DNA of 64,000 nucleotides from Nitrospira sp. (GTDB lineage Bacteria > Nitrospirota > Nitrospiria > Nitrospirales > Nitrospiraceae), in contig JARFXO010000001.1 in NCBI GenBank assembly GCA_029194665.1, positions 968,484 to 1,032,483 of the forward strand, written 5' to 3'. Positions within the stretch are counted from its first letter, which is position 1, and each line of letters begins with the position of its first letter. Below, piece after piece: positions 55,680-59,560 of this stretch. Under the pieces are notes generated by a model. That model ran no database searches and was not told the DNA's origin. It saw nothing but the letters and a program-made list of their open reading frames with translations. The position numbers and the translations under genes are program-made.

Positions 55680-56828
55680 TTAGCGTTTCTTTCGATTGAG
55701 TAGGTTGCCGGACCGAACCTGGCAGGCCAGAACATCGCAGATGACACGTGTGGCCATGAGGCTTGTAATCTCCGCTGCGTCGTAGGGAGGTGAACACTCG
55801 ACGATTTCCATTCCGGCCAGCGGCTTCGTGTCGGCGATGATCTGGAGAAACTTCAAGACTTCACGCGGCAGGAACCCGCCGGGCTCAGGCCAGCCGGTGC
55901 CCGGCACGAAGGCGGCATCCAAGCAATCCACGTCGAAGCTCAACCACACAGCATCCACACCATCAAACGCCACTTCCAGCGCTTGCTTCGCGGCATTCTC
56001 GATGCCCATTTCCACGCAGTCGGTCACGGTCATGATCGTGGTTTGGCGTTCACGGCCGGACTTCACGCCTGGTCTGGGGGCTTGCCAGCCGCCGATACCG
56101 ATCTGCACGAGATTCTTGGCCGGCACGTTGGGGATATTCGTCGCGTGAAACCAAGGCGTGGTATGCATGCGTTCATCAAGGTCGGTCTCCTGCGTGTCCA
56201 CATGTCGGTCGAAGTGGAGGATGCCGAGCTTCTTGCCGTTCATATTCTGGGCCACGCCTCGGACCGTCGCAAAACCTAGTGAATGGTCGCCGCCGAGGAC
56301 CACGGGAAAGGCGCCGCTGGCATAGACATGCCCCACGCCCTTGCTGACTTGATCGAAGGTCTTCTCAATGTTACCGGGAATCGTAAACACGTCGCCGACA
56401 TCGCAGATCGAAATGGACTCCCGTAGATCCACGCCAAGCTCGAAGCTGTAGGTACCGTACAGCGCGGAGATTTTGCGAATCCCTTGGGGTCCGAACCTGG
56501 TACCGGAGCGATACGTCGTCCCGCCGTCGAACGGCGCGCCGAGAATGGCCACATCGTATTGGCCGCATTTGCGGACATCTTCGACATACGGAGCCTTGAT
56601 GAAGGTGTTGATGCCGGCGAAATGCGGCAGCTCTCCCCGGCTAAAGGTTGGAATTCGTCGATCCTTGATCGAATCGGCGCCAGGCAGGCCCAATTCAAGG
56701 CCTCGGGCAACTTCTTCTTCATATTTCGTGGTCGGCAGCAGCGCCTCCGCTTCGACCGCGTACTTCGCCTCCGGCCCGTATTTATCATGCAGTGGAACCT
56801 TGCCTTGGTATGTTCTCTTTTTTGCCAC
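55680..56828 (-). CDS. gdmH: Arginase-family hydrolase, probable Ni-dependent guanidinase (GdmH type)
   Basis: The start is GTG 56828, since AGAAAGGAG lies upstream; the frame extends to 56888. The 382-residue product is an ureohydrolase with metal ligands His182 (LGGDHSLG), Asp207/His209/Asp211 (HFDRHVDTQETD) and Asp299/Asp301 (SFDVDCLDAAF). Its N-terminal extension of about 70 residues, the DRHVD variant of the usual DAHxD, and VPGTGWPEPGG resemble guanidine hydrolases (Synechocystis Sll1077) rather than arginase or agmatinase. These convert guanidine to urea and ammonium using Ni. The gene follows the riboswitch-controlled permease gene by 88 bases. Agmatinase is the fallback. Confidence 0.85.
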   Translation of the reverse strand: MAKKRTYQGKVPLHDKYGPEAKYAVEAEALLPTTKYEEEVARGLELGLPGADSIKDRRIPTFSRGELPHFAGINTFIKAPYVEDVRKCGQYDVAILGAPFDGGTTYRSGTRFGPQGIRKISALYGTYSFELGVDLRESISICDVGDVFTIPGNIEKTFDQVSKGVGHVYASGAFPVVLGGDHSLGFATVRGVAQNMNGKKLGILHFDRHVDTQETDLDERMHTTPWFHATNIPNVPAKNLVQIGIGGWQAPRPGVKSGRERQTTIMTVTDCVEMGIENAAKQALEVAFDGVDAVWLSFDVDCLDAAFVPGTGWPEPGGFLPREVLKFLQIIADTKPLAGMEIVECSPPYDAAEITSLMATRVICDVLACQVRSGNLLNRKKR

Positions 56829-56916
56829 GATTGCTCCTTTCTGAGAGATGGATGAATGTATGGCTCTGTTTGAACCCCTTTGTTGCAACGCAAAACTTGA
56901 CGAGCTTGCCGGCTTT

Positions 56917-58395
56917 TCATTCTTGAGTGGGCGCCGATTCCTCAGGACGCATCAATAAGGCGCTCCTGATAGGTTTAACGATGAGAAGGTAGAGCGTGGT
57001 CACCCCTAAGATGCTTCCCAGGACCAGCGGAACGGCCCAGAGTTGCCACCAGGGAGCATCAGGCGAGGTAGCGTAGGGGCGTGGCCAGGCGATATTGACG
57101 AATTCAAACACCGACCAGAGAAACGCCGCCGTATTGATCAGCAACCCCCAAGCCCCCAGCTTCAGCTGACCTAATGAAGGATCCCATCGGCCAGTGAGAC
57201 GGGTGAAGAGTCCAACCCCCGTCGTCATTGCAAACATGGCGTACAACCCGCCCGTGCCGAATGCGAGCACCGTGGCGACCGCCTCATCGTTGAGTCCGAA
57301 GAGCAATCCGAGGGTGGCCAGCAGCACAGTGAACAGCACGGCATTATGAGGAGCACCGGCAGCGGTGACCCGACTCAGGACGGCCGGCATACTTCCCTCG
57401 CGCGCCATGGAGAACACAATACGGGATGTGTATTGCACCATGGACGACCCACAGGCCAGAAACGCGATCATGACAATCGTCAGGAAAGGGGTTTCCGCCC
57501 AAACTCCAAAGTTGGCGACGATTACAGGCGTGACAGGATCGGAGGCGGCGCTCGTATGGACCAGGGTGTCGCGATTGAAGCTGAGGGTGAGGGCGGCGGA
57601 GTTGAAGAGCACCACGCTTCCGACCATGCAGAGAGAGAGGAAGATCGCGCGAGGAACCATCCGTTTGGGCTCGTGAGTTTCTTCGGCGATGGTCGAGCAA
57701 GCATCGAAGCCGATGAAGGCCCACCCGGAAATGGCGAGCGCCGCCAGAAATGCAGCGGCCTGGCTGGGAGCGGTTCCTGTCCCTAGACGTGCGAACAGTT
57801 CGGAGAATTCATGCTGTCGAAAGAAAAAGAACAGCAATAGCGCGACCCCGAACGAACCGACGATTTCCGCATAGACCCCCAGGGAAATTAGGACCTTAAA
57901 TACCGTAACGTGAACCAGATTGAGGACGGTGCAGATCAGCATGAACACCGCGCCCCAGATCACGAGTGTGACTCCTGTCCCACCACCTGACCCGAAAAAA
58001 ATCGCCAACCAGATACCGCCGGTGTAAGCGGTTGTGGTGAGCATCGCGATCGTGGAGCTGACGTAGATGGCCCCGGCGTACGTGCCGGTCACATTGCCTC
58101 CAAGCTGTCTCGCCCATTTATAAGCCCCACCCGCGATCGGAATCTGGGAAGACAGTTCCGCGTACACGGTCGCCACCAACAGCTGCATCACCAGACAGAG
58201 GGCCAACGCTGGGAACCAACCACCGCCTGCGACCACCGCCTGGACGCCGATAATGGCGTACAGTCCGGCAACCGGTGAGACAGTTGCGAACCCGATGGTG
58301 AGGCTGTTCCAGAGACTGAGGCTGCGATTGAGGGTCTCGGGAGGACTTGTAGCGGAAGCAGGAACAACCGTATCCGGAGCTTCTTTCATTAACAT
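56917..58395 (-). CDS. APC-superfamily permease under a guanidine riboswitch
   Basis: I place the start at ATG 58395, 6 bases after a GAGGGG ribosome site; ATG 58389 is the alternative. The frame runs on into the riboswitch to 58509, which is not natural coding. The 492-residue protein has about 12 helices. Typical amino-acid/polyamine permease motifs are present: GFATVSPVAGLYAI, AELSSQIPIAGGAYKWARQLGG, AISGWAFIGFDACSTIAEETHEPKRMVPRAI. Given the upstream guanidine-I aptamer and the downstream guanidinase, guanidine is the likely substrate. Relatives in this family are annotated only as amino acid permeases. Confidence 0.88.
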   Translation of the reverse strand: MLMKEAPDTVVPASATSPPETLNRSLSLWNSLTIGFATVSPVAGLYAIIGVQAVVAGGGWFPALALCLVMQLLVATVYAELSSQIPIAGGAYKWARQLGGNVTGTYAGAIYVSSTIAMLTTTAYTGGIWLAIFFGSGGGTGVTLVIWGAVFMLICTVLNLVHVTVFKVLISLGVYAEIVGSFGVALLLFFFFRQHEFSELFARLGTGTAPSQAAAFLAALAISGWAFIGFDACSTIAEETHEPKRMVPRAIFLSLCMVGSVVLFNSAALTLSFNRDTLVHTSAASDPVTPVIVANFGVWAETPFLTIVMIAFLACGSSMVQYTSRIVFSMAREGSMPAVLSRVTAAGAPHNAVLFTVLLATLGLLFGLNDEAVATVLAFGTGGLYAMFAMTTGVGLFTRLTGRWDPSLGQLKLGAWGLLINTAAFLWSVFEFVNIAWPRPYATSPDAPWWQLWAVPLVLGSILGVTTLYLLIVKPIRSALLMRPEESAPTQE

Positions 58396-58466
58396 GACAG
58401 ACCCCTCTGACGTGGCAGCAGGTCTGACTGATCCGGTACGGAGAGAACTATAGGGTGAAGATGCAT
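58389..58466 (-). CDS. 25-codon leader ORF between riboswitch and permease
   Basis: An ATG at 58466 stands 7 bases behind a perfect AGGAGG. The frame (MHLHPIVLSVPDQSDLL onward) differs from that of the permease and ends with TAA at 58389-58391, overlapping the permease start codons. The strong ribosome site suggests translation and hand-over to the permease start. The product looks non-functional in itself; a coupling or attenuation role is inferred. No known leader peptide is recognised. Confidence 0.6.
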   Translation of the reverse strand: MHLHPIVLSVPDQSDLLPRQRGLSC

Positions 58467-58472
58467 AACGAA

Positions 58473-58506
58473 GCCTCCTGTGGGAAAGGTTAAATTCCCA
58501 AAAGGC
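58473..58506 (-). promoter_or_regulatory. Hairpin that hides the leader Shine-Dalgarno site
   Basis: In the RNA, GCCUUUU (58506-58500) can pair fully with AGGAGGC (58479-58473), continued inward by GGGAA with UUUCC. The stem covers the leader ORF ribosome site. Directly before it lies the perfect hairpin CATGTAC/GTACATG (58507-58524). Together these form a likely translational expression platform for the aptamer. Confidence 0.7.
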
Positions 58507-58520
58507 CATGTACCTCAGTA

Positions 58521-58640
58521 CATGATCTCCCGGGCTTTTATCCCTCCGTGGAGCCTCATTATGCGAGGCCGGAAACTCTTGGACCAGACACTCCCACTAA
58601 AGGCAGCCGGAACCCTAGTTTCCCTTTTGGAACGATCTTG
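58521..58640 (-). promoter_or_regulatory. Guanidine-I (ykkC) riboswitch aptamer
   Basis: The minus strand carries the conserved ykkC core in order: ACTAGGGTTCCG (from 58619), TCTGGTCCAAGAG, then ACGGAGGGATAAAAGCCCGG and GAGAT. A P1 stem can form between CAAGATC (58640-58634) and GATCATG (58527-58521) with one mismatch. This class binds guanidinium and turns on guanidine exporters, carboxylases or hydrolases. It lies in the leader of the permease-guanidinase operon. Recognition is by the near-complete consensus. Confidence 0.95.
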
Positions 58641-58645
58641 TCAGG

Positions 58646-58674
58646 ATCCTATTGTCTTGCCATGCCAAAGTCAA
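58646..58674 (-). promoter_or_regulatory. Sigma70-like promoter of the guanidine operon
   Basis: TTGACT (58674-58669) and TAGGAT (58651-58646) are separated by exactly 17 bases. The start point would be near 58640, the first base of the aptamer's P1 stem. The promoter lies about 75-100 bases beyond the lipase gene's stop, so the operon is independently expressed. Confidence 0.75.
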
Positions 58675-58747: not shown

Positions 58748-59560
58748 TCATATGTTGGGTTTGAGCGCATTTCCGATGTACTGCACATAGTGCCGCATCG
58801 AATGATCCTTCAACCCATCGCTTCCCGATCGGAGAAAATCCTCCATCCGTCCGTTGACCCGCTCAAGAAATCGATCCCAGAAGCTGATGTCCGTCTGAAT
58901 CTTCCCAGCTGTATCGATATACCGAACTTCTCCACTGTGGGCATAGCCGAAGGCACGCGGCGCCACACGGGTGACGGTGTCATTGTTGTTGACGAACCGG
59001 AAGTACTGTCCAGCCAGGCGGCGCGCACATTCGGTCGCGAAGGTCTCATCGCCCACGCGAGGCTGACCAAAGGTATACAGACCGTTCACCGTATGGCCTT
59101 CTACCAGCAAGTGTGCGGCAGCCACGACGGCCAACGCCCCACCCAGGCTATGGCCCGTGCACCAGAGCGACTGCGGTCGGCTCCTGTCCCGTAATCGTTT
59201 AATCGTGTTGAGCAGATCATCCTTCACAAGTTCAAACGCGTGCAGGAATCCTCGATGCACCTGCCCGAAGGGGCCACGCACTTTATGAAACTGCGCATCA
59301 GCCAACAAATCTTGCAAGTGCGATGGTTCGGTCCCTCGGAATGCCACGATGATGAGGTGGTCATTCGCGGCGACATAGCCCTCTGTGTCTCTGCGGCTCA
59401 GAAATTCGAAGTTCTTCAAACCGAGTTCGGCAACTGCCGGTTGAATGGTGTGCTTTTCCTGATAGGCGATGTTGGCTGCCTCTGCCAACCAATAGGCGTT
59501 GTTGAGACTGTAGGCTGTGGCCTGTGATTCAAAGTGGACGTTTGAGAGTGTGGTTGTCAT
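58748..59560 (-). CDS. Class 3 lipase family protein
   Basis: The 270-residue protein has the alpha/beta-hydrolase elbow CTGHSLGGALA with Ser138. LIIVAFRGTEPSHLQDLLAD provides the oxyanion region, and YTFGQPRVGD and NNDTVTRVAP carry the expected Asp and His neighbourhood. This is the lipase_3 (fungal-type) family that hydrolyses triacylglycerol or other esters. No signal peptide is seen. It lies upstream of the guanidine operon on the same strand but is separated from it by a promoter. Confidence 0.9.
   Translation of the reverse strand: MTTTLSNVHFESQATAYSLNNAYWLAEAANIAYQEKHTIQPAVAELGLKNFEFLSRRDTEGYVAANDHLIIVAFRGTEPSHLQDLLADAQFHKVRGPFGQVHRGFLHAFELVKDDLLNTIKRLRDRSRPQSLWCTGHSLGGALAVVAAAHLLVEGHTVNGLYTFGQPRVGDETFATECARRLAGQYFRFVNNNDTVTRVAPRAFGYAHSGEVRYIDTAGKIQTDISFWDRFLERVNGRMEDFLRSGSDGLKDHSMRHYVQYIGNALKPNI

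Follow-up and report, generated by a model that had tools for sequence, protein, structure and literature searches.

A guanidine-I riboswitch in Nitrospira that may act first on a short leader open reading frame before the permease gene

Upstream of a permease gene in Nitrospira there is a guanidine-I riboswitch, and the question arises of what this riboswitch acts on first when the Shine-Dalgarno (SD) sequence and the start codon following the aptamer belong to a short open reading frame (ORF) read in a different frame from the permease. We consider this question for a stretch of 64,000 nucleotides (nt) of Nitrospira sp. (contig JARFXO010000001.1, positions 968,484 to 1,032,483; hereafter the window), together with the corresponding loci in relatives. 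All the results are computational, and the reading that we favour comes from folding, covariation and comparison of relatives. To this reading we give a probability of about 0.7: the element would be an ON riboswitch that works at the level of translation and acts first on the leader ORF, with translation then handed to the permease, the leader being a coupled landing pad. An action of the riboswitch on the leader ORF, followed by termination-reinitiation at the permease, had been put forward in the original prediction, which was made from the letters of the window, and it appears well supported by the comparison of relatives. The features on which the argument depends are as follows, where (-) denotes the reverse strand.

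58525..58629 (-), guanidine-I riboswitch aptamer (RF00442; cmscan, 91.9 bits), with helix P1 at 58623-58618/58576-58571, P2 within 58570-58550 and P3 within 58550-58527
58624..58630 (-), CCAAAAG, 5' arm of a proposed helix P0, with the partner CUUUUGG at 58504-58498; from covariation
58550..58564 (-), P2 loop and 3' strand, GCAUAAUGAGGCUCC, proposed to cover the leader SD and AUG (58478-58463) in the OFF state
58527..58534 (-), P3 3' strand, CCCGGGAG, with the alternative partner CUUUUGGG at 58504-58497, which extends the next hairpin (helix A', anti-P3)
58507..58524 (-), perfect hairpin CATGTAC-TGAG-GTACATG; 100% of cells paired over 38 rows
58497..58504 (-), strand CUUUUGGG, contested by P0, A' and a local SD stem
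58474..58479 (-), AGGAGG, SD of the leader ORF, 7 nt upstream of its AUG; (A)GGAG(G/A) is kept in nearly all relatives
58389..58466 (-), leader ORF of 25 codons, ATG at 58466, TAA at 58391-58389, peptide MHLHPIVLSVPDQSDLLPRQRGLSC; open frame and stop position kept in 38/38 leader-type loci
58398..58426 (-), hairpin C (CAGACCU...GGGUCUG) inside the leader, containing the permease SD GAGGGG (58407-58402); its arms covary
56917..58395 (-), permease of the APC superfamily, a putative guanidine importer, starting at ATG 58395 or 58389; Pfam AA_permease_2, 1.4e-34

The aptamer match is full length, its score compares with a gathering cut-off of 63 bits, and it is the only guanidine-I aptamer in this genome. 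Binding of guanidine would be expected from the family and from the published induction in comammox Nitrospira (PMC11410670).

The leader ORF and its end at the permease start

The aptamer is carried by 47 of the 79 genomes of the genus and by two genomes of a sister genus. In 38 loci of these two genera, which we call the leader type, the SD and AUG after the aptamer open an ORF of 23-30 codons. In every one of them the ORF and the permease are read in different frames, and the stop codon of the ORF has its first base 1-8 nt past the A of the permease start; in the window the TAA overlaps the second permease ATG by a single base and is one base beyond the first. The AGGAGG and the 25-codon ORF in another frame, ending in TAA at the permease starts, are thus as originally described and recur in 38 loci. 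Loss of the ORF start, the SD or the stop overlap among relatives had been named as the outcome that would speak against the proposal; instead, start, SD and stop position are kept.

Most indels in the leader preserve its frame, the offset being 71, 74, 77 or 83 nt. In 34 loci the leader is in the -1 frame relative to the permease, and in the other four (L004, L017/L018, L039) it is in the +1 frame, representing three independent frame changes, each with a new stop again at +8. Over the leader stretch no row out of 38 has a stop in the leader frame, while the other two frames are interrupted in 27/38 and 8/38 rows, and when neutral evolution was simulated along the permease tree (26 rows of equal length), 1.6% of the runs gave zero stops. 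The changes by codon position are 47/27/37 in the leader versus 65/25/385 in the permease; protein-level selection on the leader peptide is not detected by these counts, and the peptide is not conserved. Because of this lack of protein-level selection, the leader peptide looks like a landing pad for ribosomes, and what is kept in the leader is the openness of the frame and the position of its end, rather than the encoded peptide. A sequence-dependent leader peptide of the attenuator or stalling type was considered and rejected, neither a conserved peptide nor marker codons being found.

The permease has an SD of its own, GAGGGG in the window and GAGAGG in most relatives, 6 nt upstream of its AUG. 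The original prediction that the AGGAGG serves the leader ORF and not the permease holds as far as the leader is concerned, while this second SD had been overlooked. It sits within hairpin C, where 90.6% of the cells are paired in the alignment, the two arms covary (p = 0.0002) and the mean folding energy of the stretch is -12.9 kcal/mol versus -7.8 kcal/mol for windows taken inside the permease gene. From this anatomy, it is expected that ribosomes would translate the short leader, with its sequence mattering little, melt hairpin C and free the permease SD, and would then stop next to the permease AUG and reinitiate on the permease.

Predicted masking of the leader start by the aptamer

How could the aptamer control the start of the leader? 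In the unconstrained minimum-energy fold, the P2 loop and 3' strand GCAUAAUGAGGCUCC (58564-58550) are paired with GGAGGCUUCGUUAUGC (58478-58463), which contains the leader SD and start codon. This pairing was examined with a fold-independent test on the nitrifier loci, in which duplex energies are compared between strand pairs taken from one locus and strand pairs combined across loci (5000 permutations, identical pairs removed). In Nitrospira the mean is -20.8 kcal/mol for cognate versus -19.9 kcal/mol for non-cognate strands (p < 0.0002, with none of the 5000 permutations as low), and in the ammonia-oxidising betaproteobacteria (AOB), which have related permeases and share the aptamer, it is -16.1 versus -15.2 kcal/mol (p = 0.008). 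Control segments in the same comparison gave a null result.

Pair counts in the 38-row alignment give two-sided changes at four pairs of the helix; compensated pairs are seen, for example, in L029 (CAUAGCG/CGCUAUG) and L050 (CAUGGCG/UGCCAUG). Between two strains of Nitrosospira multiformis (L097 to L096) the leader start changes from AUG to GUG and the P2 loop has changed to match. The covariation also persists at the loci whose gated AUG is the start codon of the permease. Since the covariation is found in Nitrospira and separately in AOB, the P2 loop and 3' strand of the aptamer itself are the best candidate for the strand that masks the leader start.

In the proposed mechanism, without guanidine the P3 3' strand would be taken up into A', the extended form of the CATGTAC hairpin, and the leader SD and AUG would be paired with the P2 loop and 3' strand, blocking the ribosome start. 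With guanidine, P1, P2 and P3 would retain their own strands and the leader AUG would be exposed; in Nitrospira, the P0 helix may additionally close around the aptamer. Shuffling the downstream sequence never gave a helix A' (CCCGGGAG with CUUUUGGG) as strong as the observed one, in either Nitrospira or AOB (0/200 in each). P0 covaries in Nitrospira (p = 0.002, with two-sided changes at 2 pairs) and finds no support in AOB by the same duplex test (p = 0.98), so that it is a feature of Nitrospira only. In energy models that leave out tertiary contacts and the ligand, the mean probability of the leader AUG being unpaired is 0.08 in the free ensemble versus 0.51 with P1-P3 enforced (46 Nitrospira loci, the same direction in all 46). 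The predicted direction, open with ligand, agrees with the guanidine-induced expression in comammox (PMC11410670).

Some details of the switch differ from those first proposed. The CATGTAC hairpin after the aptamer is indeed perfect, and its 5' arm had been taken to share bases with the 3' strand of P1; that strand is GUUUCC, at 58576-58571, and it is the P3 3' strand that the extended arm overlaps. The second stem that was to bury the AGGAGG is present in the local fold (GCCUUUUGGGAA / UUCCC..GGAGGC; -23.2 kcal/mol for 55 nt, z = -4.2). It was rejected as the main mask because covariation within Nitrospira does not support it (p = 0.11 and 0.49), and we keep it only as a possible minor element. 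A start masked in the unbound state is predicted, but the original proposal had missed the possibility that the P2 loop and 3' strand pair at long range with the SD and AUG. The other outcome named as speaking against the proposal, an AGGAGG free in both states, is thus not what is predicted.

Natural variants and alternative explanations

At seven Nitrospira loci (L006, L016, L023, L024, L027, L031, L033) the SD and AUG after the aptamer start the permease itself, with 47-51 residues upstream of a fixed anchor versus about 25 usually; six of the seven form one clade in the permease tree, from which L006 is absent. Outside that clade, leader and permease are fused in frame in L005 / L087, where the first internal permease ATG is now ATC and the permease is shorter than in relatives; L005 may be decaying or misassembled. 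In Nitrosomonas the gated AUG is mostly the direct permease start, with 27-30 residues to the anchor, and leaders of 63 and 75 codons occur in L098 and L104. The leaders of Nitrosospira and Nitrosovibrio range from 14 to 116 codons, and some of them end at the permease start: the stop lies at +7 in both L092 (116 codons) and L095 (57 codons), and the 65-codon leader of L112 ends in ATGA. In L096/L097 (64-65 codons) and L128 (21 codons) the stop lies 14 nt before the permease. Long leaders that stop at the permease start would be hard to account for without selection for coupling.

We consider it rather probable, though with less confidence than we have for the window itself, that guanidine-I riboswitches are translational in nitrifiers of two phyla, with the P2 loop as the anti-start strand and with the gated AUG kept while its sequel is swapped (the permease, an in-frame extension, or out-of-frame leaders of 14-116 codons). 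The leader would then serve as an adaptor, independent of its sequence, through which riboswitch control reaches a start codon that has been displaced.

Several points weigh against the leader ORF being the first target of a translational switch coupled to the permease. In L030 the SD and leader start are lost by deletion while the permease SD is kept. Some AOB leaders, stopping 30-96 nt before the permease, fit coupling poorly: the 14-codon leader of L109, L110 and L113 stops 30 nt before the permease and is in the same frame, and in L098 and L104 the distances are 96 and 57 nt. The P2-loop/start helix keeps a mismatch in L010, L012 and L051, and the permutation tests, apart from the removal of identical pairs, ignore shared ancestry. 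The predicted accessibility of the SD is not raised on binding (0.31 free versus 0.23 enforced, the 46 Nitrospira loci), and the free fold lies about 14 kcal/mol below the enforced bound fold; therefore, the switch would have to be kinetic. Finally, guanidine raises mRNA levels in sludge (PMC11410670), and this rise fits a purely translational switch only via mRNA stability or Rho.

The rise in mRNA is what would be expected if the element were an ordinary guanidine-I transcriptional switch, with A', ending in CCUUUU, as a terminator that is relieved by guanidine and with the leader as an incidental ORF. The class is described as a transcriptional ON switch in most cases, one that prevents a terminator (review PMC12186494), and A' competes with P3 as a terminator would. 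By contrast, no terminator-like site or U-tract was found at the locus by the scan, though a weak or Rho-dependent terminator might still be there; A' ends with four U only, followed by GGG, and a run of five or more T after the aptamer occurs in only 2 of 68 loci. Moreover, a transcriptional switch leaves both the covariation between P2 loop and start codon and the position of the leader stop unexplained. We therefore regard it as unlikely, although it is the strongest of the alternatives.

Alternatively, the permease might be started independently at its own SD, which is good and well spaced and which L030 retains without a leader start, in which case the leader would be either a decoy or a peptide whose sequence is sensed through stalling or attenuation. 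This is quite improbable, because that SD lies inside a covarying hairpin within the leader, the peptide is not conserved and the leader lengths vary from 14 to 116 codons. Slightly less probable still is that the leader is a frameshifted N-terminus of the permease, whether joined to it by programmed frameshifting or a decaying relic: the in-frame fusion from the same AUG in the seven Nitrospira loci and L005 and a permease frame that is largely open upstream too (stop in 8/38 rows) would agree with this, but the relative frame is -1, +1 or, with an intervening stop in L109, L110 and L113, the same, so that no single shift works and programmed frameshifting is rejected, while the permease SD and AUG are retained and riboswitch-free relatives have a short N-terminus.

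Some further loci are recorded here as side observations. In Nitrospira relatives, L084, L088, L090 and L099 are close permease homologues with a short N-terminus and with no guanidine-I aptamer found upstream; some of the 'noRS' labels in the permease tree were assigned from a text pattern and may stand for missed aptamers. L049 and L093 lie on one 12.8 kb contig of Nitrospira sp. Ga0074138. This contig breaks off within a guanidine-I aptamer, and a second permease copy starts where the contig starts, as if the sequence were closing on itself; the other copy in that genome is L030, the locus without the leader start. In L034 the permease frame breaks about 237 codons past the anchor and the tree branch is very long; it is probably an assembly frameshift or a pseudogene.

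The remaining features around the riboswitch in the window are as follows.

55680..56888 (-), ureohydrolase of the arginase family; Pfam Arginase, 3.3e-76
58646..58674 (-), promoter-like match TTGACT-17-TAGGAT directly upstream of the aptamer; 1 found by consensus scan versus 0.2 expected in shuffles, which alone is no evidence of function
58748-59560 (-), lipase-like ORF of 270 residues with a GHSLGG motif in its translation, on the same strand upstream of the riboswitch

By its position, the ureohydrolase would be the guanidinase of the published comammox operon (PMC11410670).

Relation to known systems and implications

The triad of riboswitch, permease and guanidinase in comammox Nitrospira has already been published, in a paper where the leader ORF goes unmentioned (PMC11410670). 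The locus is like that operon and like guanidine-I (ykkC, RF00442) in general in its aptamer, its gene order and the expected direction, ON with guanidine. It differs from the usual guanidine-I riboswitch (PMC12186494) in that the intrinsic terminator is not found and that there is an apparent translational platform on a leader ORF. A leader ORF in a guanidine riboswitch is not reported in the literature searched, which did not include the original guanidine-I paper, and a translational mode via a leader ORF was not found described there for the class.

The nearest worked case of the whole arrangement appears to be the B12 riboswitch of ppe2 in M. tuberculosis, which controls an out-of-frame upstream ORF (uORF), uPPE2, whose stop overlaps the ppe2 start, with ribosomes passed on mainly by termination-reinitiation (PMC11260477). 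As there, a riboswitch stands next to a short out-of-frame uORF with its own SD and a stop at the start of the main gene, which is the case at all 38 leader-type Nitrospirales loci, and by prediction and covariation the riboswitch masks the uORF start in one state. By contrast, ppe2 has an OFF switch demonstrated by reporters and tagging, while here a guanidine ON switch is deduced from sequence; moreover, here the SD of the downstream gene is sequestered, and relatives exist in which the gated AUG starts the main gene. The P0-like helix of Nitrospira resembles that of the PRPP riboswitch, joining both ends of a ykkC-type aptamer. P0 is known in the PRPP riboswitch, where it takes part in the expression platform, and is stated to be absent from guanidine-I (PMC6031431); the support for the Nitrospira helix comes from covariation.

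That comammox and ammonia oxidisers use guanidine was found only recently, and the regulation of the guanidine operon has so far been taken as transcriptional. If the leader-ORF platform is true, it would alter the reading of the induction data, of the permease start sites and of the heterologous expression of guanidine operons. In the literature searched there is one worked bacterial case of riboswitch control via such coupling, and the variants that follow one gated AUG (direct, fused and with a leader) would provide a natural series in which to test how coupling carries riboswitch control over to a displaced start.
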